Shown piece after piece: positions 26,254-56,211 of a stretch of 64,000 nt of DNA. A model generated the notes under the pieces. The model searched no databases. It was given only the letters and a program-made list of their open reading frames with translations, and was not told where the DNA came from. The stretch's first letter is position 1. Each line of letters opens with the position of its first letter. The DNA is from Toxonevra muliebris. Its lineage: Eukaryota; Arthropoda; Insecta; Diptera; Pallopteridae. The position numbers and the translations under genes are program-made. The stretch covers positions 29,965,890-30,029,889 of the forward strand of contig OY829328.1 of the NCBI GenBank assembly GCA_963691655.1. Reading direction: 5' to 3'.

Positions 26254-29200
26254 GGACATTGATATTTATTTTAAATGGGACTTAAAAAGCTTACTGTTAT
26301 CCGATTTAAAGACTCTTATTTTTACCACAAGATAACTTTGCTTTTACTTTAACGCACAACTAAAATTTGAACCATTTCACTTTTTGAACTCCTTCTTTAA
26401 AAAGATATCACCTCAGAATTGATACAGTAAATTTAAAAAAATCACCTGAGAAGCCGGTGTATTTGTATTTATTTAGTTAATCGTTTCAAAATCTAGCACT
26501 TCAAGATATAAATTTTATAACAGCACTAAAACTAGTGATTAGAAAAGTTCAAATACAAAAAAAAGAGCAAAGCTTAATATTGTTTTTTAAGCATACAAAT
26601 TATTACCCATCAAGTGGCCCCTACTAATGATGACGACTAATATTTTATTGAAAAAAAGTTAAGATTCTTTTTTGCTTGCGGGTAAAGTTTGCCCGAAATC
26701 GGCACACAGCCTACTCATGACGCCCCTTTGTTAATGATCTGACACTTGATAGAGAACAAATTAATGTGTGCAACGGATTCCTCTTCTCTTTTAAAAAATA
26801 TCTGCGAGTAGTTCTTGAAATTCACAACATTCAAAAATCTTTCCACTGAATCCTTAAACATTCTTTAAATGTATTCGGCTTTAAGCAAATTCATTGAGAT
26901 ATTTGTAGCAGCACCCAAATTTAATGAAAAGGTTATTAAACTATCAATAGTGAATTCAATAGCATAAAATCTAGAAATAGAAAATTTTCTCGTCTTCGAG
27001 GGTCAAAATAAAAATATTAGGTCTATTTGCTGGCTCAAGATTTCGATAAGATTGGAAAGTTCGCAATAATGCTTATATTTGGAAAAGCTTCACCAACCTG
27101 CAAGATTACAAACACACAGTTGCGAAACAGTTGATTCTTGCTTTGATTGTTTTAAAACAGGTTAAATTTATTGTGCGATGAGGTGTCATTACTTCAATAC
27201 GATTTCTCATTTAGACAAAAGTGTTTATTTAGGTAATTTTTGCTTTCACATTTGGGTCCTCAACAGCAGGCGGAAAAGGCTCTAAACCAACAAAGCAAAC
27301 GCGGTCGGCATCATGTCTCTGCCATTATCAACAGTATCACAGGCTACAAGATGCGACGACCCAAATACTCCTGCGATTTTTTCGCAATAGAAATTGTATG
27401 CAGCTGGACCTTCTCAGCAGTTTACCTCAAAATCTATGTTCTAACATTACGAAAATACTTATTTATTTATTTATGACTATAGCAATTATGGATAATAGGA
27501 GGAATGGTAATGAGTTACTTTCCAACCCCATTATTTTTTCTCTTAATACATATTGCAAGAGAAGCTGTTATGAAAACAGAATCCAAAATGTCTAAAAAAT
27601 GTGAAAGATCTTAAATTTTTCCTGTTTTTTACAATCTTGTGTTTATTAGAGAGTTGCTAGTCAATTGCATCTGAAATCTGACATTTTTGTACAGCGAAAT
27701 TCCGAATTTCAGACGCACTGCTAAATTTGCCTGAAATTCACTCTCGTGTGTCTGCACTATAAAGTAAGTAGGATTAGAAGCATAATGACCATCGGTGAAA
27801 GTAGCCTCTAGGGTTTCCTATCTATTAAGGATCATTATTCTATGTATAAGTTATATATAGTTAGTAAGGACTACCCCTTTGAGTTAGGTATTTCTAATAG
27901 ATTTAATTAGTTTTATTTATTTTTTAAACCAATATGACAAACTTGCATTGATATGAATTTTGAAACAATAAAAAAATACATAGATATTTACATAGATAAC
28001 GAATTTTTTCGCAGACATGCGGTGTAGTTGTTTATGTACTCGTAGGTAGGTATACATATGTATGAAGGTATTTTTGATAAAAATTTTACTGTTAGCTTAT
28101 TTTATTTTTCTTTTTTTTTAGGAATTCCAGGATATGAAACACGATTTTGAAATGATTTATCTCTTGTGTCTCGTTTTTCATTTTCTTTAATAGATATAAA
28201 TATTTTTGTGATTGTTTGTGTTGTTATTGTTATTCTTATGTATTTATTTACTATATTATATAAATTATAAAAATTTTGAGCGCATTTTTTTTCTTAGACG
28301 TATATACATATATTTTTTCCATATATGTATAGTAAAGTAGTTAGTAGATATAATGAAAAAAATAAAGTTCTAAAATTACACAAATGACCAAATTTATCGA
28401 AAATTTTTAACAGTCCATACATTACATGATATGCTTAAAAATTTCCTTTTTTCAAGAGCGCTTTCCCTGCAAATGAACCGAGGAGACAGAAAGTTGTTTG
28501 TTAACCGGAAACAGCTCCTGATTAGGTTGGGTGTTATAAGTATGTAAGTGATATAATTATGTAAATGATTTGAAATTACATAATTAATTTTCACACATAC
28601 ATTTTGTTTAAGAATTATGGAGTGTAATTCAAGGAATGTTTATTAGAAATATTTGAATGAGTATTGTCTTGCTGCTTACAAATTTTTTATTCTAATAGCC
28701 ACCGGGGTACAACGAGCGTTGTTTGTTGTTATTAATTGGTTAAGGAATCAAATTGTTTCTGTACACCTGAATTGAATATTAGAGATGAAAATTAAATTCA
28801 CGTATAATAGTTGGAATTAAAGAGATCAGGCAATGCACTACCACATCGCCACAGTGTTTATTTTGTCGTCGCGATTAACATCATACAAGGAAATCATTCT
28901 ATCAGTTTATTTAATTGAAATTACTTAAAAAAGTTAGGGTCTTTATCAAAATGTGTAAAAGCCATATAAATCTCGTAAACTGCATACACACCTAAAACAT
29001 ACTGTCAAATTTCACATAAATTTCGGCAAGCTTCTGGTGCTTATGAGGTTTACAAGGCTTTTGCACGTTTTGATGAAGTCCATTAATATTTCTATTGATA
29101 TGGTACTATTATATCAAGGGCTATTAGTTTTTCAGCAATGAAAACTATTTGGACGTTTCTCCAATTTTTACACGAATTCTCCGAATACTCATAATCAGGA

Positions 29201-30344
29201 CACAATTTGTATTTCTTTCAAATCAGAACGAAAGCCGGAGATATTACAGAAAACGGCTTTTAAAACATTCATCCACGACTCCTCTAGGGAGCATAGGGCT
29301 GGAATTAATGGGAAGATACTGCGTCTGTGTTAATCAGTCGGTTGGCAATAAGTAGGAAGAATTTTTGATATTAGGATATGTTCTCTTTTGGTCTAATTTG
29401 TGATAGTTTTAAGTAAAATGAAGAAAAACGCACGAGCATATCATTGTGAGGAATTGAAACCATAAGCTTTGAGGTGATATTCCAGTACGATGCCACTAGA
29501 CCATCGAGCCGGTTGCTCTATATATGAGGATCATTGAGATATTCGCCAAAAACTTATGCAGCGGAATACGTCGAACATTTAAAAACAGTTACAATTGGAT
29601 TAATATATTTGCGGGTCGTATTTTGTTATTGTAACAGTTTTGTTTGGATATTTTTTTTTTGGTAAATTTTGTTTGTAGATCAAAATAGGGTACCCTAATT
29701 AGTACGAATCGATACTTAATTAAAAAAAATCCGATTAATAAGTTTTTGCTTATTTTCTCCTCACAAATGTAGATTCACGTTTCAGTAAAAATTTGTTTTG
29801 CCTTTACCACATTTTTATTTATAGTTGTTGAACATAATTCTTGAACATTCAAATCTTAAGTATATTTTACTAGATATCTCCAAAGTTCGACATGACTTGA
29901 ACTGCATCACTAGATGAAATTGATTTTTTTTTTCTGTTTTTTATTTTTGTTTGGGCTTTGTGTAATTTCAGAACTTTCTATTATCTAATAATAGTAATAC
30001 AAATTATACTGTCCTCGTACTGCAAGTTATACGAGCTTATTACGTACCTGCTCTCAAAAATATATATGCTTTAATAATCATCGTTAATTTCTGTAGGCAA
30101 AATGCAATTTTCCGGTTTTGAATGGAGCTCAAAAATTGCTTTAAACAAGTAGATGCCCCTTCTTTCTAACGATCGTACAGTTACTTAATTAAAACATCAT
30201 CACTTCATCATCATATTTCCAATGGTGTGGTGGAGTTGTCTCTCATCTTCATATCATAAATTTTACATATTTCTATATCAATATCATATCAGAACCGAAC
30301 CGAATCGAATCATCAGTTTGCTAATCATTCATCATCATCTAATA
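26254..30344. other. Intergenic DNA between DD37E copy 2 and the stac 3' end
   Basis: No gene is supported in 4 kb. A GC-richer open frame at 27240-27476 (QQQAEKALNQQSKRGRHHV) may be a small fragment of something coding but is unrecognised. A SINE-like relic lies at 29430-29520. Confidence 0.35.
29430..29520 (-). mobile_element. Relic of a tRNA-headed SINE
   Basis: On the - strand, GATGGTCTAGTGGCATCG (A-box-like) is followed about 35 bp later by GGTTTCAATTCCTC (decayed B box). No body or tail is identifiable. Confidence 0.4.
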
Positions 30345-30672
30345 ATTTGGAGCTGGTATTTATTACTATTTTGTTCCGCTAAACCAAAACCAAACAAACA
30401 AAAACAACGAAGATATTAAACGGAAAACTATTGCTGAATATCAACGATTGATTGAAAGCAATAATATGAATCGCTGCCGCTGACTGATACAATTCTTGAT
30501 GATGCCAAAATGCACTGGTGATATGACAATCATTGTTGATTCCCATTGATTGTTGATTCCATATGTTGTTGTTATTGCTGTTGTTGTGTTGTGCGTTTAC
30601 GTGTGAGAGTCTGTGTTCTTTATCGGTTAAACTCAACTAACAACCCCCATACCACGGAAAGGTCCAGCACCA
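30345..30672 (-). other. Probable start of the stac 3' UTR
   Basis: Sequence following the distal TGA on the - strand is rich in CAA/AAC repeats. The + strand TTTATT at 30359-30364 is an AATAAA signal in the sense of stac, giving a minimum 3' UTR of about 320 nt. Longer 3' UTRs are common for neuronal fly genes and are possible here. The 85-codon open frame at 30379-30636 lies in this UTR and has no support of its own. Confidence 0.5.
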
Positions 30673-33009
30673 TCAGTGCGGAAGCATAAGTGGACGTGCT
30701 GTACTGGTGAGTTTGTGACGCACCTGCGGCTTCTCACCGTAGCACTCATTATAATTGTAGAGTGGTGATATTTTGAGGCCAGTCTTCTCTGGTATTATCT
30801 TAAAATGAGGCTGTTCAGTGCTGACAATAAGCGGCCGCTGCAGTGAGTGCATATATTCGCCCAATGGACGTTGTGTGCTGGGGACATTCATTTTCTTACA
30901 AGGCTCGGGTTTACTTCCGACATTCATTTGGCAGTTGAGGGGTGAATATTTGCTGGGTTTGTAAATGGAGAAGATGTTATTGATCAGACTCAATGCGGAA
31001 TGGCCGCTTGCGGAAGGATGATGTCCGCCCGTGGTGGGCTGTTGTGTCTCTACTTTATGTTGGGGATAGAAGTTATTGTACTTGTAGGTCGGTAGGGTAT
31101 CCATTGTTGGGTAGACTTTGTGGCCGTAATTATAGGAGCGGTGTAGGGGCGAGCCACCTTGCTCAAAAAAATGAAAGTCACTAGCTGCATTATTGATTGC
31201 CTGCGTATCGATTTGCGGTGGTGATGGCATACCCTCTAACAGCGATTTCTTGATCATCATGCGCTCTTGCTCGCGATCATGCATGTCGATGGGTTGTCCG
31301 TTGTTGTAGCAGCCCACATTAACGTTTTTCACTTTCAAATTGCTCTGCATATTGCGTCGCTGCATGTCTAGATCAATGGGGCTGGGAGGCTTTTCCAACT
31401 CCTCCCAGTATTTTTCCAAATCGATATTGAAATCTTCCAAATCCATTTGTGTTGATTCTGAGCAAGTATCTTCGTCATATCGACTAGGCGGTTGAACTTC
31501 TAGCAATGACTTACTGCGCGCCGGACGTCGATAATTGGTGGCATAGTGTAGACTGGGTTCTGCTGTAGTGGATAAGTAACGTTCATCCTCGTCTAAAAAT
31601 TTATCTTGCATCATCAGACGTTCGCGTTCATCCCGTATAAAGTGATCCAAGTCTGTGTCGTATGCTGCGGCGCGGCAATGCAGATGCTCCTCCTCCTCGG
31701 CGGCCGGATGGTGGCCGGGACAGTGTAGGCGTGCACGTTGCCTGGCAATATGGTGCTGTTGCTGGCGGTGGTAGCAATAGTCTTCGGCGGCGCAGCAACA
31801 AATCACCGTAGGTGGCGGCGGCAGTGGCTGCTCGCGTTCACGTTCGCGGCTGCTGCATACAGCCGAGTGTAGCGAGTAGCGCGGCGCCGTTGCCACACGA
31901 TGGTTGCCTCGGTCCTCAATCCAGTCAGCGGCAGCGTGCAGGTTTCTGTTGCTACTACCGCTGGCGTCAGCGCCATACATGCCCATGGGTACACCGACAC
32001 GACGCCATGAACGACGCGAGCTCATCGGGTAGTTCGGATAGATTTCATCCAGTAGACACTTGGAGTTGGTGCAGTGTTCGCGTGCACAGCACGTGCGCGC
32101 ATCGTGCGCATATATTAGCGCACTCTCATCCAAACTGTTGCTGTAACCATAGTATGCCATAGATTTTCGGAAGGCCTCCTGTTTGTCACGGCGTGTGTTA
32201 CTCGCTGGCGGCAGTTCATAATCCATGACATCGAATGGTGTTGTCTTAGATGTTGTAGCACTAAAGGAATACGATTTCGGCACATTGGTTCGATTCTTTA
32301 AGATTGAGGTGGTGGCGGTTGGACCGCCGCTGTCGTAAGTGTTACCCAGAAAATAGCAGCTTTGAGACTTTGGATACTGAAATTCTTTGTAGCTCGTCGA
32401 ACGTTTTAAACCATATCCTGACGAACCCTCGCCCTCACCCCTTTTTCCACGTCCATCCATATCCATGTCGGCCAAATCAGTTTCAATGTATAGTTCATCC
32501 TGCTCACGTATATTCCGTAACTTACGGTACGTTCCATATTTAATACAATCCGGCACATAATCTTCTTCCAAGTCTTCGGAACGATTCGAATATATATTGT
32601 CCGTGTACCATGTTGGATCTAATTGTTTTGGTTTCGGTTTAGCTAATTGCATTTTATCCCGCTTCGATTGGCGATAACTTTCAAAGCAGATATTTTTCAT
32701 TTTCTCTAATTTCTGTTCACGTATGCGCTCCCAATTTTCCCAATTCTTATCGTTCTTACTTCTACCATTATGCAACTCAGCATAACTGAGGCCATTATTT
32801 AAATTATATTCTCCAGCGTTATAGTCGAGATTAATTTGTTTAAGTTCATTTTGGGTTTGTTCTTTATTAAAATTATTGTAGCTGGTCGTGCTGCCACCGC
32901 TATCGGTGACGACTATTCTTATTCTACGTTTGGTCTTGTCTAGCAGCTTCGACGACAGCAGCGATGATTTTTGCGGCTTATCGCGTTCGGCTGACGGCTC
33001 TTCTGGCTG
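30673..33009 (-). CDS. stac: stac in-frame 778-codon extension after TGA (putative readthrough)
   Basis: The frame continues from the TGA at 33012 with CAG CCA GAA and stays open to TGA at 30675-30673. Extension residues 1-78 are PEEPSAERDKPQK..., a basic stretch (KTKRRIRIVV) and NYNAGEYNLNNG-type sequence. The first Met is at about residue 104 (codon 32700-32698), so an independent start is unlikely. The extension is largely disordered in character. Cys/His clusters lie at about residues 307-318 and 405-434. An acidic, Trp-containing segment (DLEDFNIDLEKYWEELEKPP) lies at about 523-542, and many Tyr residues are present. Codon use is more GC-rich than the surroundings, as expected for selected coding sequence. 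No known domain is recognised. Confidence 0.85.
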   Translation of the reverse strand, partial: QPEEPSAERDKPQKSSLLSSKLLDKTKRRIRIVVTDSGGSTTSYNNFNKEQTQNELKQINLDYNAGEYNLNNGLSYAELHNGRSKNDKNWENWERIREQKLEKMKNICFESYRQSKRDKMQLAKPKPKQLDPTWYTDNIYSNRSEDLEEDYVPDCIKYGTYRKLRNIREQDELYIETDLADMDMDGRGKRGEGEGSSGYGLKRSTSYKEFQYPKSQSCYFLGNTYDSGGPTATTSILKNRTNVPKSYSFSATTSKTTPFDVMDYELPPASNTRRDKQEAFRKSMAYYGYSNSLDESALIYAHDARTCCAREHCTNSKCLLDEIYPNYPMSSRRSWRRVGVPMGMYGADASGSSNRNLHAAADWIEDRGNHRVATAPRYSLHSAVCSSREREREQPLPPPPTVICCCAAEDYCYHRQQQHHIARQRARLHCPGHHPAAEEEEHLHCRAAAYDTDLDHFIRDERERLMMQDKFLDEDERYLSTTAEPSLHYATNYRRPARSKSLLEVQPPSRYDEDTCSESTQMDLEDFNIDLEKYWEELEKPPSPIDLDMQRRNMQSNLKVKNVNVGCYNNGQPIDMHDREQERMMIKKSLLEGMPSPPQIDTQAINNAASDFHFFEQGGSPLHRSYNYGHKVYPTMDTLPTYKYNNFYPQHKVETQQPTTGGHHPSASGHSALSLINNIFSIYKPSKYSPLNCQMNVGSKPEPCKKMNVPSTQRPLGEYMHSLQRPLIVSTEQPHFKIIPEKTGLKISPLYNYNECYGEKPQVRHKLTSTARPLMLPH

Positions 33010-36000
33010 TCACACCTCTTGTAGGTATTTAATCGGGCAGTAGCCCTGACGATTGTCTGCAGAACGTAACTTAATCATGCCATTAACCTCTTCGCCAGTC
33101 TAAAAATTCAAATATCAAATATTTTAAAATGAAATACGAAAGTAAATGTTTAATTGATGAAGCAAGCGTAAGGGACTTAAATGTTTTTAATTTATTAACT
33201 TAAGCTGAAATCGATACTTAAGTGAGATGGTTGATGGTGTTCAATGGGACTCACCTGTATTACAATTTGATCCCTTAATAAAGTCAAACTCTCTCCACGT
33301 TCACCATCTGATACTGACAAATTTTGTGTCACCTGCAATGGTTTTTCATTGGCATTCAAACGTACACAATATTTTGATGGAAAGTAACCAACACGTCCAA
33401 GTACTTTAGCCTTCCACCAGTCCGGGTCAGATGTATCGATGACAGTAACCTAAAGAATAAATGTAACAAAATAATTTAATATGGAATTTATTTATTTATT
33501 TTTATTTACAATATCAAATTATTCTGGACTTTTTATAACACACTCGTGCTATATTTGTACATGAATAGGAAGAACTCACAATTCGGGGACCGTTTGAATT
33601 AGTAGCAATTCCTATACCTACCAACATAAATTGGAAGCTCTTCTAATACCAATTGCAAAACCAGTGGTCAGCCAACTAATCTAGACCGATACTGAACCTT
33701 TTAAGGGTGATCATTAGTACCTTTTTAGGGAAAATTTGTAACAGCAGCAATCTTGGACCAGTTTTGGACTATGTGTTTGCATACATTAACCAACATCTAG
33801 TTTTCTTTTGGAGATAGGAAGAAAAGTTTAAACAAAAATTTTTTTTTTTAAATCTTTAGACTTTCTGTTGTTTGTATTTTCACGAAAAAAAAATATTTTC
33901 TTGTCGTTGAAATGAAAGACTCACTCAATAAATATGTCCAAGCGATCCAATAGAGTTTTGCAAATAGAGTTGAGTTTAACGCAACGTCCATAAGTCTCAA
34001 TATTGTGTGTTATCTCACCAGAGCTGTAAAAGATTGCAGTCTTTTTCAGTTTGATGTCAACTGACTTCTAAAAAAATGATTGCAGTAATCCAGTCTTTTT
34101 GTGAATGCGGAATAAGACTTTGAAGTCAAAAGTCATATTTAAGTCAATGACTTATCATTCATTTTTGAAGTCATTTTTTTGAAGTCATGAATGATCAGCC
34201 TCTTATTTGCAGTCCTAATCTCAACAAAGTATTAATTGACTTGAAGTCATTCATTTTGAAGTCATTTAAAGTGAATTTAAGTCACTTGAAGTCAATTGCA
34301 GTCATTTAAAGTCAATTGACTTCAATTTATTTCAATGAAGTCAATTGACTTCACTGAAATAAATTGAATTCATTTTTTTTTTGTTTAAACTAATTAGATG
34401 AGCCACCAATGTTTTCGAACACTACACTTCTTCCCATTGAAGATGAATATTGCGCCTATCTGGCTGATCCATCTGCATCTTTAAATGCGCTTCACAGATA
34501 CCCTACAATAAAAAAGGCTTACATAAAATATAATACTTCCTTGCCATCTTCTGCTGCAGTGGAAAGACTATTTTCTATTGCAGCACTTATCAATGCTCCT
34601 CGGCCTGGGTCGCTTTCAGACAGTAATTTCGAGAAATTGCTACTACTGAAAGTCAATGACTCGCTATAAAGAAAAATTCAAATGTATAGGCATATAAAAA
34701 ATCATCGAAATCAAAGCTGTGCCTCAAGCAACTTTTTTCCAAATTTACTAGAAATACCTGTATAAATTATAATAATTAAAATTTTTTTATTTATTTAAAA
34801 AAATTTGTAATTATATTTGTATCTAATATAAAAACTTGGTTATTCGATGTTCTAGTTGTGTATGTAGTTACTTATATGTATGTATGTATGTCTAAGCTGA
34901 TATGTATTATTAGGTACTTATATGTATGTATGTCTAAGCTAATATGTATTATATGTTTTTTCACAACTGTCTTATTGTCGTTAAAATCATGAAGAACTTT
35001 TTTGTTTAATTAAAAAATTATACTACTTATAAATATTGTATATTTTTTATCATTCAATAACAGATTTCACTCAGTGAAGTCTCAAGTGACTGCAAGACTT
35101 CAAACCAATTTGAAGTTATGACTGTGACTTCAAACCAATTTGAAGTCATGACTGCGACTTCAAGTATAATGTGAAGTCATGTGAGTGATTGTGACTTATT
35201 TGCATTGAAGTCTCAAATTGATTGCTATAATCAATGAGCAGTCATTGACTTTAAAAAGACTGGTGACTTAATTTTTTAAAGTCATAAGACTCAAATGAAA
35301 TCAAAGACTGTAATCAGAAAACGTAATTCATTTGCAGTGACTTCAATGAATGCAGCTCGAAATGACTGCAGTCTTTTACAGCTCTGTATCTCACAAACCA
35401 ATTTTCAAACCTAATCTCTTTAAGTGCGGTAGATATTGCGGAATTAGCGACTCCAGCTTCAATGTTTCGCAGATAATTTGTTTTTGTATAAATAATTTAA
35501 TATAAATATTAAAATGGGGTCGGATATTTGAATTCATTCGGATTATTCGACATGCTGGGCGTGCCAATAGGATGCACGCTACAGTGCAACTGGTTATTAA
35601 ATACATTCAGACTACATTAAATCTATAATTTCAACGCCAGCTTGTAAATGCTTTACTTTTAGGAAGCTTGTTAATGGTCTAGTTTTTGGATTGAATTTTG
35701 TACTGAATTTTAATCTGATATTGGTTTAACTTTTCCTTTTTCGCCCGTTTTTGATCTGAATTCTGGTTTGATTGTAAGCCAGAAATTTGTTTTATTTTAG
35801 TTTGAATTTTAATCTGAATTTGGTTTGCGTTTTAATCCATGTTTGGTCTAAATTTTGATTTGCTTTCCAGCGCTTGCAGACCACGGCTTGATCTGATTTC
35901 TGGTCTAAATTTTGTTTTGCTTTTAATTTGTATTTGGCGTCTTAATTTGTATTTGCCTCAGTTTTAATCTAACACTTAGTTTTAGTTGTGGTCAATATTT

Positions 36001-44200: not shown

Positions 44201-47200
44201 TTTTTATAATAGCATAAATAAATTTTATGTAATTTTTTTAGATCAATCGGAAACAGACAACACACTTCAAACCATTTTTATGAGAATAAATACAATGATG
44301 TTTTTGATGGGACCAGTAAACAGCAATAGCTTTTTAAAGGAGGGTGACCGCACAGAAATTTAAAAAAAAAATAAATTTTTTTATTTTGCCATATTCTTAA
44401 AGAACAAATTTTTAACTCATTTTTCTTCACAGTTAGTGACCATGATTGGTCAAGAACTGTTTAACCGATCAATCTGAAATTTGGGAACACATATTTTAGA
44501 TTATATAAATTCGCGATGACTAAAAATATATAATTCAATTCAAATTTTTCTATCAAAAATTGCGTTAATGTGGATGTCAGATTAATGGATACAAATGCGA
44601 ATGTAGAAGTAAAATAAGAACAAATTTGTAACTTCAGAAACAGAAGTCATCACCCATAAAGTTCCATAAGAAACTGAGCAAATCTGTTCACAAACATAGC
44701 TCAGAAAATTTATGTGCATGAAATTTGCTAATATATATGAAGTTATACATTCGCAGACGAGAGTGTGAATCCTGATGCGAATATCGAAAATATGTAAATG
44801 TTTCGCATATAGCTGATTTATTCCCGAATTACAGTGCTAACTGCAAACTTATCTGAAAAAATTGCACGGAAACTTCCATAACTCCGACATAAATCAATTT
44901 TTACAACAATTGTTCTTCAAGCTAAATTTTGGCAGTATACACACACACATTTTCAGGCTAATAACACATTTTTTTGACATAGGTTTTTAATTCAGATTCT
45001 AAAACAGAAAGTTTCAAATTTTTTTCGAAATGCTTGTTGCTGGGACTGTTAAAAACTTTTAAAATTAAAAAAAAAAAAACAGAAAAATCCAGCTATATGC
45101 GAGTTTATGAATTGAATTCCCATTTTAATTTTAAATATTCAATTTCAAATTAGAGATTCTCATATTTCTGGCTTATAAGAAAGAAAAATATAGAAATGAA
45201 AAGTATTTGAAAATCGTTGAATATTATAGATTATTAATAAGAAGATTCAACATTTGGGGGCTGAAGTTAAAACCCTAAATCTTCCTCTAAATACGACTTT
45301 GTAATCAGCCGTAGTGGAGCACCTTTCAGCCTCAAAGTTGATAGGAGAAACTGAATGTAAAAAGTTATACATTATTTGTAAGGGTACTCCACGAGAATCG
45401 TCGGATACAAATAAATCAAGTTCCTGAGTAATAATATCGGACAATTTTTCTACGATTTAAAAGTTTTGTGTCTTAGCTGGGCTGTTAAAACTGATTTTAA
45501 TTTTTTTTTAACACAAGGATTCAGAATTCTGAGCATGCACTTTTTCTTTACTTGTTGTTCTCTTTTATGTGTATACGGTATACCACATAGCTGTTAGTTT
45601 CTTATGTGAGGAGAAGACTTAATTTTTGTCACACTGTGTAATCTATACTAACACTACTCTATTTCTATTTAGGTGTTAAAAGATATTTATACAGATAAAT
45701 GTAGATAAAAAGTTAAGAAGATAAAGTGATTTTTATGCTCAACTTTATCTAAGGTTTTATTAAATTGTGTTTATACATTGTTAAAAAAATATATTTTGAA
45801 TACTTCAGTTCCGATTGCTGAAATTAAGAACTAAAGCGACTAGAAATCTCGCATTCGATTAACTTACATGTTCAGTTCTGAAATACTATCAAAAAAAAAA
45901 AATCCTTTCTCTTAAAATTCTTGAACACGATCACTTTTACTTATTAGTGCTTTTCAAGAAGAATACTCAAGATGAGCAAATATAAAATTTGGGTGACTCT
46001 AACCATCATTATTTATTAAAAGTTTTCAATATTTCTTGAACTTACCTTATAACCAGCTTTTAAGTCTAATTCATCAGCATGACGCGCTTTAAAATTGTAC
46101 AAAACGACATACAAATTTGTTGGCAATAAACGATGGGATTTCTGTTAAATATTTTGGGAGGGAAGAAATTTTAATTTAGTTATAAGTTACTTAAATATTG
46201 AAAAGTTATTATATACAAAATTTATGTACAAAATCAAATAATAGAAACTATCCAACTAAAATTATTAAACGCACTTGTGTACATAGTAATCTAGACCAAA
46301 ATTGTTACTTAGTATAAAATTATTAAATTTATTTTATTAGATTTCATCTAAGACCATAAATCGAGATTATTGATTCATTTTTATGATTATAAAGTTCAAT
46401 ATGAGTAGCAAACGGTATTTTTCATTTAAAATATTAGCGATTAAATGAATTTTTCAGTTGATTATAAAAATCTTCAATACTTTGGTAAAAACTTTATATA
46501 AACTAATTAAAAAAGAGAGTCCGGAATTTGATCGGTGAATCCTAGCCAGACTCTTTTTCTTAAATAGAGTTATCGATCCCAAAACACTTTTCGTGATTTC
46601 CGGCACTCAAAATTCAATGCCGGGATTCGTCCACAGATTGGCAATTTCATCAAATATGAAATAAACTCTATTTGAGAGGCTGAGAGGAAAAGTGGTATAA
46701 CTTCTACGTTCAGAAAAAAGTGGAATAATTTTACTTAAGAGCAAAAGCAAAACGAAATATGTTCAGAGCAAAAGTGAAACGAAAATGTTCGGAGCGAAAA
46801 CGGAATAAAAAACTATGCTATTCTTGCTCTGAAAGAATTGTTATATCATTTTTGCTCTTACTTTTAAGGCGTTTCATTTTCACTCTAAACCGTATTACTT
46901 ATGCCTTTCTTGCACTGACACTCTAAATTATTTTACTTTTGCTCTTATATAAATTTTAGCCCACTTTTCCTTTCAGCCTGTCATTTGATAGGAGGAAATA
47001 TATTGATATGATTCAAGATAAAAAATAAATTAATGTTTATTTCATTAGAGTGGCGAACTTTTGCTTTTGCACTTTTATTTCGATATCTTTGAATTTTTTT
47101 TTCCAAATCGATTATTGTTTGACCTCTTAAGCCGACTAAGTTTTTGACGACGCATTTTGTGAGCAATTATTTTTTCCGTTCTACGAAATTTTGTCAGGAT

Positions 47201-50200
47201 TGTTTACAAATGTGCCTAAATAAATGTAAAGTTGAGTAAAGTACAAAAAAACTATGTATATTTTATAATTTGTCGATTTTCTGCCACCAAGTGATTCGTC
47301 CCAAAGACAAAATTCGGAAAATTCATAATGTCAAAACCAAGCAAAAGGAAAAATTCCAACTAAGAAAAATCCCAAAAAAAAAAAAAAATACTTAGAGAAG
47401 AAATAATTAGTATAGGTGCAAGAGCAGCTCAAAGGCGAACAATTTTTCGCAAAAATGTTGGATCGTTCGATTTTAGTTTTTTAGCCCGTTAAGTGAAACT
47501 ATCTGAAAAATAAGTTTTAAATATTATCCTGCCGAAAGTACCAGTTTTGTTTTCGCAATTTATGAAGGCAATTCTTGGTGTTTTGTTTTTATCAAGATTT
47601 GGCCACCCCGGTGGCCTGGTTGATGAGTGCTAGACTGGAGTTCCAGCTGCATGAGGATCGCTTTCTAGATGGGGTCAAATTCGGTGATTCAGTTTTTAAA
47701 TGCTTGACTGGAGTGCTAGTTCAACGGGTTCGTTTCTCAGGTAGAAAATTGAATCTATCAAAAATTAAAAAAGACTTTTTGAAAATACGGAATAAGAAAA
47801 TATGAATATATTTTTGGATTTTTTATTTATTTTAAAAGGCACTATGTTTTATTAGAATGTAAAAATCTTCAGGAAAAAATTAAATTTAAAAGTAGGTCTT
47901 TTTTTTTTTTTTTTAATTAAAAGTATGGAATCATGGTGAAAAATAAATAAAAGTGTAAAAAGTAATATCCATTAATATCATTTTTATTCCAACATTAAAA
48001 GATTCCAATAAAAATTGTTTACTTTTCTGAAAACATCAATGTTAACATAACTAAATAAAATAAAATAAACTTCTTGAAGATCCAACCGCCCATTCCTCCA
48101 GTACTGCGAAACCAAAGCAGGGTGACCAAACAAGCATACGAAATTTTATCGAAATTAGTACGCTCTTTGTAATTTTGTTTCTTCGTTGTAATGAAAATAC
48201 TTTTTATAGATTCAGCGAATAATTCTTCTTCGAACATTTATAGTAATAAGCTTTTCAGTTGAATTAAGTATTCTATCAATTATTCAGTCAATTCAACTAG
48301 AATATCCGAGTTTTCTAATTTTCTTACTAATTTCACTTTTTCTATATTTAAGCATCATAAAATTTTGAAAACAAAAGTGGTATGTAGAGCACGTAAAATT
48401 CATCTACTTTAAGATGAAATTTTTGGGTATTTAGGTTAAAATTTCGTAGAACAAAATATACTGAATGGTAGTGGTAGTTTTCTTTCAATATCTCTATTGG
48501 TGAAGATATTTGGAATCAAAACTCTAATTCTGGGTTACTATTTCAAATATTAGTAGTTTATATGGGATATTGAAGGATTAAGAACTATCACTAAGATCAC
48601 TAATGAGGAATCGTGGCGGATTCCGAAACTGCCGTCTGATTTGCCCGTCTCTGTATACACTGTTGTTGTGACGACTACGTACATATATACGTTCTTGAAG
48701 TCTGTTATACATTATTTAAAATGATACAATGAAAATAATTTATCACAAAGTTGGTCGGCTTTTGAGGGGTCGTATCATAGACGAATTAGAAAAAAGGCTA
48801 ATGACAAAATATTCTGTTGATTCAAAGAATAAAGATTACATAAACAATCCCAGGAACCCCGGATTCCGAGATTGGCAGCCCTAGTGTGCATACTTTAATT
48901 GCAGAGGTCAGATTTGTAAAATTTCGATGTAAAATAGTTCGAATTCAATTGAGTTAATTCGAGTGGAAGGGAATGAATCCTTCGAGTTTACAAATTTTCG
49001 AGGTTCGAATTATAAAGGTTCTATTGTATATTGAGTTGGATGTGTGTTATTTTTCGCAACAAATGGCAAATGTAAAATATATATTTTGTAATAAGTTTGA
49101 TTTGATTTATTTACAATTTAATTAATTTATTCAAAAATTAAGTGTACTTTAACTAAACTATACTTTAATCCTGCGCATATTTTATGGCATTAACCTATAG
49201 ATAAGTTAAAGTATACTTTATTTTTTATTATGACTATGCACCAATGAATCTAGATTAATATGTACTTTAAAAACTAAATACGGCTGAATATTTTTTTCCT
49301 TCTAACAACGCAAGGAATATAAAGAAAAATATTAATATATTTGTTATAAAAACATTTAACTTACAGCAATTTAAAACATTAAAACTTCTACAAAACAAAA
49401 TGAAACTATAAAAAAAAATACCTGAACTTTTCTTACGGGAGATGGGCATGGCGATGTGCTCGCCGATGATTGTGATTTTTCCATTTCATCCGGAAGATCA
49501 ACACTGCCACCACGCATGCCACGGCTGGCATAAAGTAACTTACGACCTTGATGCGAAGGGCTGGAGGGCGCTGTAAATATGATGTTTTGAAATGATTTCT
49601 GGGTTAGCGAATGTGAATGTGAAACATTTATGATTGTGGGGTAGCAGCGGCGAGTGAATTGAATTAATAATTTAATTAAAAATGCAGTAAAAATAAATTT
49701 AATTAGAGGCTAAGAAAATATAGAGAAGTGTTGAAGGCAGCGTGCATAAATAAGTTCAAGAAAATAAAATTTAAAAATATAAATATTGTAAAACGTACGG
49801 ACAGTACAGAATTAGAAGTAGAAGAGTTGATAATAATTACTTTTTTGTTTTTAATTTTTTTTTTTTCGCAAAGTAATTTAGTTTGCGAAAAAATTAAAAT
49901 TGTTAATTGAAAAAAATATACTTTATTGATTTGTAATATTGTTCCCTAAGTTGAAAATATGGACCGTTTTTGTTTTGATTTAATGTTTATGTTCATGATG
50001 AATATAGTATAAATATTAATGAAATATTTGGAAATGTAACAGCTACAATAAATACTTTAATATACTTTGAACATTATTATTTAATACAAAGAAAAAGAAA
50101 CTACTAGTTTGTTTAGGTATGAAGATACTTTTTAATTAGTGTAACTTTATTAATTGTTTAAAAGCACTAAACCCAAGAAAAAAACTCTGAACTACTTTTC

Positions 50201-53200: not shown

Positions 53201-56200
53201 TTTTCCCCCTTTGCTGTTTGGCTTTTGTTTGGTTGTGAGACTGCTGTTTAAAAAATTACTTAACAATTTTTATAAAAACATGGTAATTCTATGCCCAAGT
53301 AACAAAGTGGCGGAGCTTATTTTAATAGTTCGCAAATTTTAAATATTATTTTTCTGAGTTTTTCATATGTAAATGCAATATTTTTTGTATAATTTGTAGC
53401 TATTTCTATCAACATTATTTTCTATCCAATTCCATTCCAATTGTTTAATTTTCATTCACTCCAAAACACAATTAAATACATTTTAGTTGGAAAAACAAAG
53501 TTGCAGATAAAAGTATTAAAAAATAACATTCAGCAAAAAATTGATAGTGTAACAGGGCCTCAAACAAAATGATGAAAAGAGAGTAAAAACAAAAAACATT
53601 GACAGCAAAACATTAACCGTGTAACATCAGCCTAAAGCACATGAAATAAAACTGAGAAAAAGTCGACTCTTGCCGATCCCCATCAGTGCTGCCGAAGGTA
53701 CTCCAATCGGAGTATTGGTACTACGCTCAAATCTCAATCCTCCTGTCCTCCCTAATCGGAAGAAATCTTCCTATTTCATATTCTCGAATTTTTGAGTTGT
53801 ATGCAAAATAAACGTTAATAAAACTAAATGTTTTCTGTTGCGTTATTTTCAATCCGTTTATGTCTGTGAAATATTTGTTACTAGGACTAGCTGTTTTATT
53901 TGTCGCTGGGATACTGTCAAAATTTAAAAGTTCGCATTCCATTCCCAAACGTTTTTGCTTGGCTTTGTGTTAATGTTTGTAATTTTTGACAATTGAAATC
54001 AATAGTAGAAAAACTGTGTAAAAGTAAGTGCCTATTTAATAAATATCGATAAATTGCTTGCTGACTGCAACTGTTAATGCAGTAATGGTTTGTAAGGGAA
54101 AGTTGGAAAAAATTATGCATCCAAATGGGTCCTTTCGATTGAGCTAGCTAAAAAATACCACAAATAACATCCTATGTTTTTATGTCCGGTTTTGTGAAGA
54201 GCGAAGAAATGTTAGTTTTAGTTTTTAATCTTTTTTGTTTTTTTTTTTTTAATTTTTTTTTTTTATTTTAAAAAAGACGTTGGGGTAGCGCATTACCCAC
54301 CAAGTGGTCCTTCTGAAATCCAGCTACAGATTATAAATCATCAGCTGATAATGGCATCTATATATTTAAAAAAGTTATAACATTTTGTTTTATGGAATCT
54401 ACCGAATCAGAAATATCAATAGCATTAAAGAGGGTGTTAAAATCAAAGCAGGCACGGCGGAACGGCTCATATTATTTACTAATATTAATACCTTATATTG
54501 CACCATTTATTTCCAAAGAAGGATTATTTTGTTTTTATATAAACTTGTTTATTTTTCATATCTTTTATATGACTGAATTTGTTACAAAAACTTTCTATAC
54601 ATTATTGGAACTGTTAGCAGTTATCTAAGTAATACTTAATTGAAAACTTTTAAGACATTTTGAAAAATTCCTCCCTTGTCAAGCAAAATCCTCTGCTCAA
54701 AAGAAAAAATTCTTCCCGTTAAAATTTTCAAAACGACAGCACTGATCCCCATATGGCCTCGTTCGCTAAACACTAACAAAAGCATAACTTCTTTTCATAT
54801 TAGTTTCGTATGAGTGCAACAACAATGCGATTTCCGTTGCAAAATTTTCGATTTACCCTCGCTAATGAAGTTTCACTTCAAAAATTTGGCATCATACTTA
54901 AATTTTTATGTGTTTTACTTAAAAGAAGAATTCTATCACTTTTGAAAAAATATCCTTTACATAAGTAAATGCAGTGATGCTGCTCAGCCTAGTGTGCTCC
55001 TGGGCGAATTCTTACAGTAATATCCCAAAATATACATATATATCTCTCTCTAGTGTTCTGTTTTTTTGTTATAAAGCGTATTCCACATCTACTTAAAACC
55101 TTTGATACACATTTTTTAAAACCTTTGACTTCATTTAGACAGACGTCCCTGTAAAAATTAATATCTGCAAATAAATTATTATTTTTTTTTAATTTCTAAA
55201 ACACAAATTCTCTCAACTGTTGCGATAGTGTTTCAGAAACTCGTAGTTGTGAGTTTTTGTCAAAAATTTTCAATTTAGACTTTGTTTTTCCATCTTATTA
55301 ATTTTCTGCTCTTTCTGGTCGCAACAGTGTCGAAATTTTTGCAACTTTTAAAATACTTGTGTGAGCGCAGAGAACATACAACTGCATTAATATTTACTTT
55401 TTAACTTAAGGGTTACATTTGAACCTACCAATAAAAGGCTTAGTGTTATGAGAATATGTATGCTTCTGCTTGAGAATGATTCCACTAGGAAAACAAATTC
55501 ATACGAATTTCATGATAACCGTATACATATATAAAATTCTAAAATATGGCAACTCCATTAAATACTAACTGCTGTAAGTCACTGAAGAATTACCTAAAAA
55601 ATTATGATAAACATTTATGTTTTTTAAATTATTTGTTTTATTTTTGTTTTTTAAATGGATAATAAATGAAAAGGGTAAAATTACGATAGTACCCAAAAAG
55701 CGCTTAAGCGATAAAGGTACAAAAAACATTTAGTTGAAGTAGAGATGATTGTGAAAGAGATAAGGCGGAGGTAAAGAAAAGTAATAAAAAAGAATAGGTA
55801 TATGTAGAATATTTGGAGGAACCACAACAACCATTTATGTAGAGATATTTGTAAGTACAAGCACTTAATTTTCACATGAAAATTTGAAGTAGAATGGCCG
55901 TACTACATACATACATTCATATCTGAGGGGCATGGTAAACAGTTGTAGCTGCTGTTGGTGTTGTTTGGGCTGTTTGGTTGGCTTGGTTTTTATGTACTTA
56001 CAATGCAAGCGGCTATTATTCGACGGTGGTGTACTATGCTCTAGGTGTCCTCCCGAACCACCATGATAATATGCTCCTGAAGAAGTACCTGCTATGCTGG
56101 GCTGTTGTTGACGCCGTCTCATTTGACCATGTAATTCCGATGATTCAGGTGAATCCAAACTTAATGATTTCATGCGTAAATTTAACTTTTGGCGACGTGG

Positions 56201-56211
56201 TGAGTGTGGAG
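30673..56211 (-). CDS. stac: STAC family adaptor: linker, tandem SH3, then TGA and in-frame extension
   Basis: Exons on the - strand are 56211-56002, 49570-49422, 46141-46046, 33449-33255 and 33099-30673. All junctions are GT-AG and keep frame. The first two exons encode a Ser-rich linker, and the next two and a half encode the SH3 pair. SH3-1 has VVLYNF, DELDL, DWWKAK and GYFPSKY. The second, STAC-type SH3 ends NGMIKLRSADNRQGYCPIKY-LQEV followed by TGA at 33012-33010, which is the normal end of STAC proteins. The same frame stays open for 778 more codons, to TGA at 30675-30673. STAC proteins bind voltage-gated calcium channels and adjust their traffic and gating. Fly Stac acts in muscle and neurons. 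The C1 domain and start codon are upstream of the window. The symbol rests on the SH3 pair and its C terminus. Confidence 0.85.
33010..33099 (-). CDS. stac: stac terminal exon, canonical end of the short protein
   Basis: After TTTTTAG the exon encodes TGEEVNGMIKLRSADNRQGY, then CPIKYLQEV and TGA. This completes the second SH3. STAC-family proteins end within a few residues of this point, so translation stopping here gives the ordinary short protein. The stop context is GTG TGA CAG. Confidence 0.92.
   Translation of the reverse strand, partial: TGEEVNGMIKLRSADNRQGYCPIKYLQEV
33255..33449 (-). CDS. stac: stac exon encoding the rest of SH3-1 and the start of SH3-2
   Basis: There are 65 codons between ATTCTTTAG and GTGAGT, phase 0 at both ends. 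It contains the SH3 signatures DPDWWKAK and GRVGYFPSKYCVRL, then NANEKPLQVTQ and the first half of the second SH3 (SLTLLRDQIVIQ). NEK after the first SH3 and the spacing of the second fit vertebrate STAC proteins closely. Confidence 0.92.
34019..35386 (+). mobile_element. hAT element, internally deleted, with GAAGTCA subterminal arrays (1368 bp)
   Basis: The perfect 8-bp duplication TATCTCAC flanks both ends (34011-34018 and 35387-35394). The ends are CAGAGCTGTAAAAGATTGC and its inverse, with one or two changes. Inside each end are hundreds of bases of repeated GAAGTCA/TGACTTC motifs in both orientations. The middle keeps a short transposase remnant. Everything fits the hAT superfamily. It sits in the long stac intron. 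Confidence 0.93.
34409..34669 (+). pseudogene. hAT transposase C-terminal dimerisation fragment
   Basis: The frame encodes HRYPTIKKAYIKYNTSLPSS, then AVERLFSIAALINAPR, LSDSNFEKLLLLKVN and a stop. This is the conserved C-terminal hAT dimerisation region, in which YPxxKxxxxxYNTxLPSSxxVERLFS is diagnostic. The upstream transposase (zinc finger and catalytic domain) is gone, apparently through an internal deletion of the element. Confidence 0.85.
35690..36415. repeat. Degenerate minisatellite, TTTTGGTCTGAAT type
   Basis: Irregular copies of an 18-24 bp unit like TTTGGTCTGAATTTTG recur many times, with variants such as ATTTTAATCTGAA. The array resumes at 36860-37130 after about 440 bp of different sequence. 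Confidence 0.75.
36860..37130. repeat. Second block of the TTTTGGTCTGAAT minisatellite
   Basis: Units like TTTTGATCTGAATTTGG and TTTTGGCCTCAGTTTTG continue the array of 35690-36415. The intervening DNA (36416-36859) is probably an insertion. Confidence 0.6.
38245..38271. repeat. A27 homopolymer
   Basis: An uninterrupted run of 27 A lies inside the long stac intron. It could be a retroposed tail, but no body is recognised upstream. Confidence 0.9.
40313..40897. mobile_element. MITE with about 125-bp inverted repeats (585 bp, TAA duplication)
   Basis: The left arm 40313-40437 and the right arm 40778-40897 are inverted copies about 85-90% alike. They share CACAGTCCAACA, AATAGCCACCC, ATGTTGTATAGACC, and CAGCACGTCT followed by a T run. 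TAA flanks both ends (40310-40312, 40898-40900). The long arms and 3-bp TAA duplication suggest a PIF/Harbinger-type non-autonomous element. No transposase is encoded. Confidence 0.8.
41510..42235. mobile_element. Non-autonomous hAT-like element (726 bp)
   Basis: The ends are CAGTAGCGGATC and, in inverse, CAGTGGCGGATC. They are flanked by TGTGTGTA on both sides (41502-41509, 42236-42243). The duplication is low-complexity, so coincidence is possible, but position and length agree with the inverted repeats. The open frames in this region are not coding. Confidence 0.65.
42696..42956 (-). mobile_element. tRNA-headed SINE, family A, copy 2
   Basis: The - strand starts GACGACCTCGATAGTCTAG. It has an A box (GTCTAGTGGGTAGTG), a B box near GCGTTCGATTCC, and ends CGGCGTTAAACTGTAGGTCC. 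The body contains a short internal duplication (GGTGGTAATTTTTTATCGG twice on the + strand). The + strand continues upstream into a TTAGGTTAGGTT-type sequence. Confidence 0.75.
45249..45444 (-). pseudogene. hAT transposase C-terminal relic
   Basis: The - strand frame reads ITQELDLFVSDDSRGVPLQI, then MYNFLHSVSPINFEAERCST and TADYK. It resembles the LxxIPPTSVEAERxFSTAG block of hAT dimerisation domains with degraded residues (SPINFEAERCSTT). No ends or other transposase parts could be placed. Confidence 0.5.
46046..46141 (-). CDS. stac: stac exon encoding the start of SH3-1
   Basis: There are 32 codons between TTTAACAG and GTAAGT, phase 0 on both sides. It encodes LLPTNLYVVLYNFKARHADE followed by LDLKAGYK, i.e. 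the ALYDF-like strand and RT loop of an SH3 domain. It is followed by the 12.6-kb intron. Confidence 0.9.
46677..46979. repeat. Fold-back repeat with AGAGCAAAAGTGAAACGAAA subrepeats
   Basis: The outer arms AGGCTGAGAGGAAAAGTGG (46677-46695) and its inverse (46961-46979) differ by one base. The left half holds repeated AGAGCAAAAG(T/C)(G/A)AAACGAAA units. The right half holds their inverse (TTTTGCTCTTA, GTTTCATTTTCACTCT). The whole 303 bp can therefore fold into one long hairpin. Confidence 0.8.
47601..47757 (+). mobile_element. tRNA-headed SINE, family B, copy 2
   Basis: Its segments match the - strand copy at 6239-6404: the palindromic CCACCCCGGTGG, TTGATGAGTG, TTCCAGCTGC, AAATGCTTGACT, TTCAACGGGTTC, and GAAAATTGAATC at the end. 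The B box is more decayed here (GAGGATCGC). Confidence 0.55.
49422..49570 (-). CDS. stac: stac linker exon 2
   Basis: The acceptor ATATTTACAG ends at 49571, and the donor at 49421 is GTATTT (weaker). The exon encodes 49 codons, PSSPSHQGRKLLYASRGMRG through VDLPDEMEKSQ to SPVRKVQ. It is a basic and Ser/Pro-rich linker that enters the SH3 exon in phase 0. Confidence 0.82.
51218..51660 (+). pseudogene. DD37E transposase relic, N-terminal half
   Basis: The ATG at 51218 begins MSNKIEVSEKIIIQS. A frameshift follows, then FKAIARKARISRNTVSCVIK (helix-turn-helix), VAEKLGCSETCVGKVRREEG (second helix-turn-helix) and LKSYKVQKVPDRN, up to NFDCCIMDDDTY, which holds the first catalytic Asp. The rest of the catalytic domain is absent. 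It is a different subfamily from the two near-full copies. Confidence 0.75.
51845..52420 (+). pseudogene. Tc1/mariner-type transposase relic, C-terminal half, catalytic region deleted
   Basis: Reading across frames: NPQEVLQVQLHLEKCTVWCG, then GQNFFENDARANVTVNGARY, FWFRQD, then FDLLKERFADNIISGNGPIN, LDYFLWGYVKSLIYADKLE and ELLEKVIQNWSD. This matches a mariner-type transposase common in insect genomes. Between FWFRQD and the DLLKERF block, the segment that normally holds the second catalytic Asp and a CHT motif is missing, and the frame shifts there. The copy is dead. Confidence 0.75.
52957..53632. mobile_element. MITE with 34-bp inverted repeats and TAA duplication (676 bp)
   Basis: The left end GGGCGATATTACACG...AATGTTTTGCTGTCAA is matched in inverse by GGCTGATGTTACACG...AATGTTTTGCTGTCAA at the right. 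TAA flanks both sides (52954-52956, 53633-53635). The neighbouring duplicate keeps the uninterrupted site CTCACTAAAGCAC, which confirms the insertion point. This is probably a PIF/Harbinger-type MITE. It has no coding capacity. Confidence 0.88.
53684..54744. mobile_element. Non-autonomous hAT-like element (1061 bp)
   Basis: The ends CAGTGCTGCCG and, in inverse, CAGTGCTGTCG are flanked by a perfect 8-bp duplication ATCCCCAT (53676-53683, 54745-54752). No transposase is encoded; the small open frames inside are not recognisable. Confidence 0.85.
56002..56211 (-). CDS. stac: stac linker exon (Ser-rich)
   Basis: The acceptor CAACAACAG ends at 56212, and the donor GTAAGT starts at 56001. The exon encodes 69 codons plus split codons at each end: PHSPRRQKLNLRMKSLSLDS, then a Gln run, a Gly/Ser/His stretch, and NNSRLH. 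The final T joins CG of the next exon to make Ser. SPRR and MKSLSLDSPE look like phosphorylation or docking sites in the linker between the C1 and SH3 domains. Confidence 0.8.

Follow-up and report, generated by a model that had tools for sequence, protein, structure and literature searches.

We analyzed a stretch of 64,000 nucleotides (nt) from the fly Toxonevra muliebris (Pallopteridae; contig OY829328.1, positions 29,965,890 to 30,029,889), hereafter called the window, which holds five exons of a Stac-like gene, all on the minus strand. The tandem SH3 region encoded by this gene ends at a TGA stop codon, after which the same frame continues as a long extension. Judged from aligned proteins, this extension is conserved as protein right from the codon that follows the TGA, and we regard readthrough of the TGA as the best explanation of its expression, with a probability of roughly three in four. 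The mRNA of the gene would then encode two proteins. The majority of ribosomes would halt at the TGA and yield a short STAC protein, and a minority would insert an amino acid at the TGA, which lies in the leaky TGA-C context, and so extend the protein by a long tail that is mostly disordered. Its conserved blocks and helices could act as docking sites, giving a small share of STAC additional partners at the calcium-channel complex. The size of the extended share would be set by the readthrough rate, and the function of the extended form may in this way be controlled by dose. For conserved fly extensions, the accessible text of a ribosome profiling study gives a median readthrough of 5.2% (PMC3840789).

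The final exon before the stop (33013–33099) encodes the end of the second SH3 domain, TGEEVNG...KYLQEV, and was identified by tblastn and by its match to the PDB. The stop lies in the context GAG GTG TGA CAG, with the Val codon at 33015–33013, the TGA at 33012–33010 and the CAG that forms the TGA-C context at 33009–33007, which agrees with the LQEV-TGA ending reported in the first-pass annotation. The six letters GTGTGA (33010–33015), which represent Val and the first stop, also resemble a splice donor (GAG|GTGTGA). Beyond the TGA no stop interrupts the frame for 778 codons (30676–33009), as had also been reported, until the second TGA at 30675–30673. In 500 dinucleotide-preserving shuffles of this open region the first in-frame stop was reached after 19.5 codons on average and after 103 codons at most, and over the extension the two other frames of the same strand contain 29 and 66 stops. 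A chance open frame was therefore ruled out, based on this shuffle maximum and on the 27 related proteins described below. The GC content at the three codon positions of the extension was 0.517, 0.413 and 0.497, as compared to 0.317 for the whole window, and the first Met is codon 104; the GC-richer codon use and the stretch of about 103 codons free of Met noted earlier were thus both recovered. The earlier statement that the extension more than doubles the protein holds for the part visible in the window, whereas the gain for a full-length protein would be approximately 55% (778 residues on 1,410).

A protein search with the extension (E≤1; 7,986 candidates scored) retrieved 27 related proteins with 43–75% identity, from Teleopsis (stalk-eyed fly), Lucilia (blowfly), Glossina (tsetse), Megaselia (phorid), Scaptodrosophila, Bactrocera and several Drosophila species, with 13 from further contigs. 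Constraint on the extension was judged at the protein level. The first-pass annotation had named a lack of coding constraint past the stop as evidence against its proposal; constraint was present from the first codon, as five relatives are identical to the window at 18–22 of the first 26 positions (22 in Teleopsis, 21 in P0002, 21 in Lucilia, 18 in Drosophila miranda and 22 in Glossina, the first residue of which we supplied). Conservation is lower over the next 52 codons and then climbs again. At the C-terminus, the residues PH of the window are shared by 25 of the 27 relatives; P0002 continues beyond this point and P0027 ends differently. In a tree of the extension, the window fell in a group with Teleopsis and with P0002 (80/73; tree drawn open), a placement that probably marks the fly as an acalyptrate. 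P0002 and a Bactrocera latifrons protein share 93% identity across 378 residues.

Past the second stop, the minus strand at 30637–30672 would encode WCWTFPWYGGC followed by TAG, and P0002 displays WCWTFPWYGDC, with 10 of 11 residues the same and an end of equal length. Over the last 24 codons before the second stop, only 11 residues are identical between the window and P0002. It is possible that the similarity past the second stop, seen in this one pair, represents a second readthrough event or a conserved RNA element.

The TGA itself was read directly in the window only; a search of viral and prokaryote contigs yielded no DNA of relatives, and the presence of the TGA in them was deduced from proteins. 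Gln was found at the first position after the stop in all five sequences in which this residue is visible, which implies that the next base is C. Teleopsis, Lucilia and D. miranda each have a protein labelled "partial" that opens with the Gln immediately after the stop. P0002 has a W at the first stop and again at the second, followed by the 10 of 11 residues that match the translation of the window beyond that stop; evidently, TGA has been read as Trp, although a TGG at the first site alone in P0002 is not strictly excluded. In the Glossina protein P0003, precisely Val, stop and Gln are missing. If the Glossina DNA is as in the window, this gap would correspond to a 9-nt "intron", GTGTGACAG, too short for splicing. 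The STAC part ending in LQEV and the tail have been entered as separate proteins in Lucilia, Scaptodrosophila and D. madeirensis. The first Met was located in four sequences that extend back to the stop: it is codon 104 in the window and codons 98, 102 and 122 in the three partial proteins.

Readthrough is favored by the TGA-C context, the Gln at the first position in five of five sequences, the absence of an early Met, the constraint from codon 1 and the poor acceptor after the stop. The AG directly after the TGA is preceded by 8 pyrimidines in 20 positions, as compared to 12–16 at the four acceptors of the gene in the window. According to the accessible text of PMC5100048, splicing or a dicistronic arrangement is called where the stretch from the stop to the acceptor or ATG looks non-coding; in the gene studied here this stretch is conserved as protein.

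Several results weigh against readthrough. A search for a stimulatory RNA structure downstream of the stop was negative (z-scores of +0.87, +0.64 and −0.16). A segment of 240 nt spanning the stop folded marginally better than its shuffles, with a z-score of −1.48 and 16 of 200 shuffles equally good, and was not counted as evidence. A Drosophila protein with both halves was found neither among the best 120 of 534 matches nor in a second search, which was listed in full but is weak as a negative since it also missed Anopheles proteins found by the first. Moreover, 7 of the 27 relatives, of which five bear a drosophilid name, start with MQTS or MQSS about 20 codons into the extension (P0012, P0014, P0018, P0019, P0021, P0022 and P0024), where D. 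miranda P0015 has Leu, as judged by eye; an internal start may thus have arisen in some drosophilids. Finally, the fused models outside the higher flies rely on a splice. A limited literature search found nothing that ties the Stac-like gene to readthrough, which is no proof of absence. The proposal of the first-pass annotation, a short STAC protein and one extended by readthrough, is thus supported in part: the tail conserved from its first codon, the TGA-C context and the predicted disorder agree with it, and the negative results for RNA structure and for a fused Drosophila protein count against it, as do the spliced models elsewhere.

Nine proteins that combine the SH3 domains with the tail were seen outside the higher flies. 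The tail is joined right after LQE in seven of these, namely in five from Anopheles, in Culicoides P0038 and in the beetle Phaedon P0071, and earlier in two from Anopheles, P0062 and P0064. LQEV is retained in none of the nine fused models. A C-terminal LQ[ED]V was present in 85 of the 121 proteins fetched. With the window as query, the tails gave E values of 5e-57 to 2e-35 in Anopheles (best segment of each of the seven), 2e-33 in Culicoides and 1.7e-5 in Phaedon, and the Megaselia and Phaedon tails matched each other at 2e-8; these values refer to a database of nine sequences and carry no composition correction. The flies and mosquitoes share 154 alignment columns, of which 109 include Culicoides and 31 also include Phaedon. 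That homologous tails occur not only in flies but also in mosquitoes, a midge and a beetle suggests that the tail predates the Diptera.

These joins can be read in two ways: readthrough may have replaced splicing in the higher flies, or the introns may be annotation artefacts that skip a stop. The latter is favored by the variable joins among Anopheles species, and the former by the gene name CSON012985 in Culicoides, which covers both a form ending in LQEV and a fused form. We do not take the joins in mosquitoes, the midge and the beetle to prove that splicing is ancestral, since the Anopheles joins vary and P0003 is without precisely Val, stop and Gln, so that gene prediction may have been bypassing a stop. 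A more tentative proposal, which we consider somewhat improbable as it stands, is that GTGTGA is a double switch. It would act as a 5' splice site that skips the stop and adds the tail in midges, mosquitoes and beetles, and as a site of readthrough in the higher flies, where the intron would have dwindled, with the 9-nt GTGTGACAG perhaps being its relic. An ancient isoform once controlled by the spliceosome would then have come under the control of the ribosome. In the scorpion Centruroides, P0032 carries the SH3 unit twice in tandem, joined after KYLQD without Val, as if the GT of the Val codon had acted as donor; this join may be an artefact of the model or the assembly.

Among the alternatives to readthrough in the window, the best surviving, though unlikely, is a splice from the donor after VIQ (33255) to the AG just past the TGA (CAG|CCA), which would omit the end of the second SH3 domain and the stop in frame. 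Both joins are in phase 0, the letters preceding CCA are indeed CAG, and use of this CAG as acceptor would equally keep the Gln conserved; P0062 and P0064 also omit the end of the second SH3 domain. However, the pyrimidine tract is weak (8 of 20), approximately 30 residues would be removed from the SH3 domain, and the join is absent from all 121 higher-fly proteins fetched. A splice from a donor within the Val and stop codons (GAG|GTGTGA) to an AG deeper in the extension, like that of the mosquito, midge and beetle models, is quite improbable. The seven fused models joined directly after LQE speak for it, as does an in-phase AG that lies 63 nt inside the extension of the window, is preceded by 12 pyrimidines in 20 positions and would give an intron of 69 nt, but the first 26 codons are conserved as protein, with length differences of whole codons, which is unexpected for an intron. 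It is very unlikely that the extension is a second protein with an internal start, made from a dicistronic mRNA or from a promoter of its own. Several annotations do enter it as a separate protein initiated by Met, and the drosophilid versions open with MQTS or MQSS; against this, the extension in the window has no Met for 103 codons, and codons 1–26 are conserved ahead of any Met in five relatives. Least probable of all is that the stop is removed by adenosine-to-inosine (A-to-I) editing (UGA to UGG) or decoded as selenocysteine: editing is frequent in fly neurons, but the editing enzyme disfavors a G preceding the A, there is no strong fold around the stop (z-score of −1.48 for 240 nt), and the selenocysteine insertion sequence (SECIS) was not among the Rfam matches at E≤5 in 28500–33300. 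Expression of Stac-like in some neurons, as stated in the accessible part of PMC7573238, also counts for editing. Internal initiation and selenocysteine are thus weakened, as are a downstream acceptor and a sequencing error; the first two were set aside after having been weighed, along with RNA editing and an assembly error.

In the structure model of the extension, which is poor overall, the mean predicted local distance difference test score (pLDDT) was 45, with 594 of 778 residues below 50, and the extension is accordingly predicted to be mostly disordered. The eight helices listed in the model include those at residues 87–122, 449–481, 531–539, 544–555 and 576–592, and the invariant blocks in 25 aligned sequences include WYTDNIYSN, INNIFSIYKP and FKIIPEKTGLKIS. 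No Pfam domain was found in the extension of the window; 25 family members gave stray matches only (best E values of 0.096 to 0.41, in one or two members each), and a PDB profile search with the extension gave no match at E≤1. The sequence features suggest that the tail may be a scaffold with docking motifs on a channel adaptor.

The remaining exons in the window were located by tblastn. Using P0003 and P0033, we identified two Stac-like linker exons at 56002–56211 (APHSPRRQKLNLRMKSLSLDSPES...; AG before, GT after) and 49422–49570 (SPSSPSHQGRKLLYASRGMRGG...; AG/GT flanks). The exon at 46046–46141 encodes the first half of the first SH3 domain (KSHRLLPTNLYVVLYNFKARHADELDLKAGYK; 94% identity to P0033; AG/GT flanks), and the exon at 33255–33449 the remainder of this domain and the start of the second, ending VIQ|GTGAGT (86–91% identity; STAC match in the PDB). 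Ahead of the TGA lies a tandem SH3 region of the STAC type, with STAC3, STAC and STAC2 as the top PDB matches (E values of 5e-16 to 2e-9), and its exons are 60–94% identical to those of other flies. Of the 25 matches to the B. latifrons protein P0033 (1,410 residues), 18 lie between C3:29998902 and C3:30358934, and the gene thus spans approximately 360 kb and continues upstream of the window. Two C1 exons, C3:30071553–30071714 and C3:30074338–30074481, match residues 1001–1097 of P0033, the C1 domain of which is at 1023–1071. As for an F-BAR-type N-terminus, an FCH match was obtained in Culicoides P0038 (below the Pfam cut-off) and none was detected in P0033; Dstac is said to carry a BAR domain in the accessible part of PMC7573238. 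The intron that precedes the exon at 33449 holds, on the plus strand at 34394–34669, a remnant similar to the dimerization region of hAT transposases (PF05699, E = 0.0051, below the Pfam cut-off).

Stac proteins govern the behavior of L-type calcium channels in muscle and neurons. Readthrough as such is an already known kind of event in flies, and the extension of Drosophila kelch is likewise very long, in frame after a TGA and similar in size to the 778 codons described here. The two proteins are unrelated, and readthrough of kelch was shown experimentally. In fungal peroxisomal enzymes, Freitag 2012 reportedly described an extended isoform produced by alternative splicing or by stop readthrough, the extension being a short targeting signal. 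The Stac-like gene would be similar in that either route may give an extended isoform, and differs in that its tail comprises several hundred residues. Kelch is named among the early readthrough cases in the accessible parts of PMC8417969 and PMC4528330. The gene resembles the readthrough candidates in the accessible text of PMC5100048 in its TGA as first stop, the C that follows, the constraint that sets in directly at the codon following the stop and its great length with long introns; RNA structure was present in 9% of those candidates, and none was found after the stop in the window. Should one isoform arise by splicing in some insects and by readthrough in others, the gene would directly test the replacement of one mode of control by another. 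Drosophila Dstac (Stacl, CG43729) shares the tandem SH3 region, the C1 exons and the linker, and a tail protein of D. busckii carries the name CG43729. The accessible parts of two accounts of Dstac (PMC8258685, PMC7573238), the first of which describes functions in locomotion and neuropeptide release, make no mention of a C-terminal tail. With the conserved tail entered separately in several fly genomes, a part of the insect Stac protein may thus have been overlooked in functional work.

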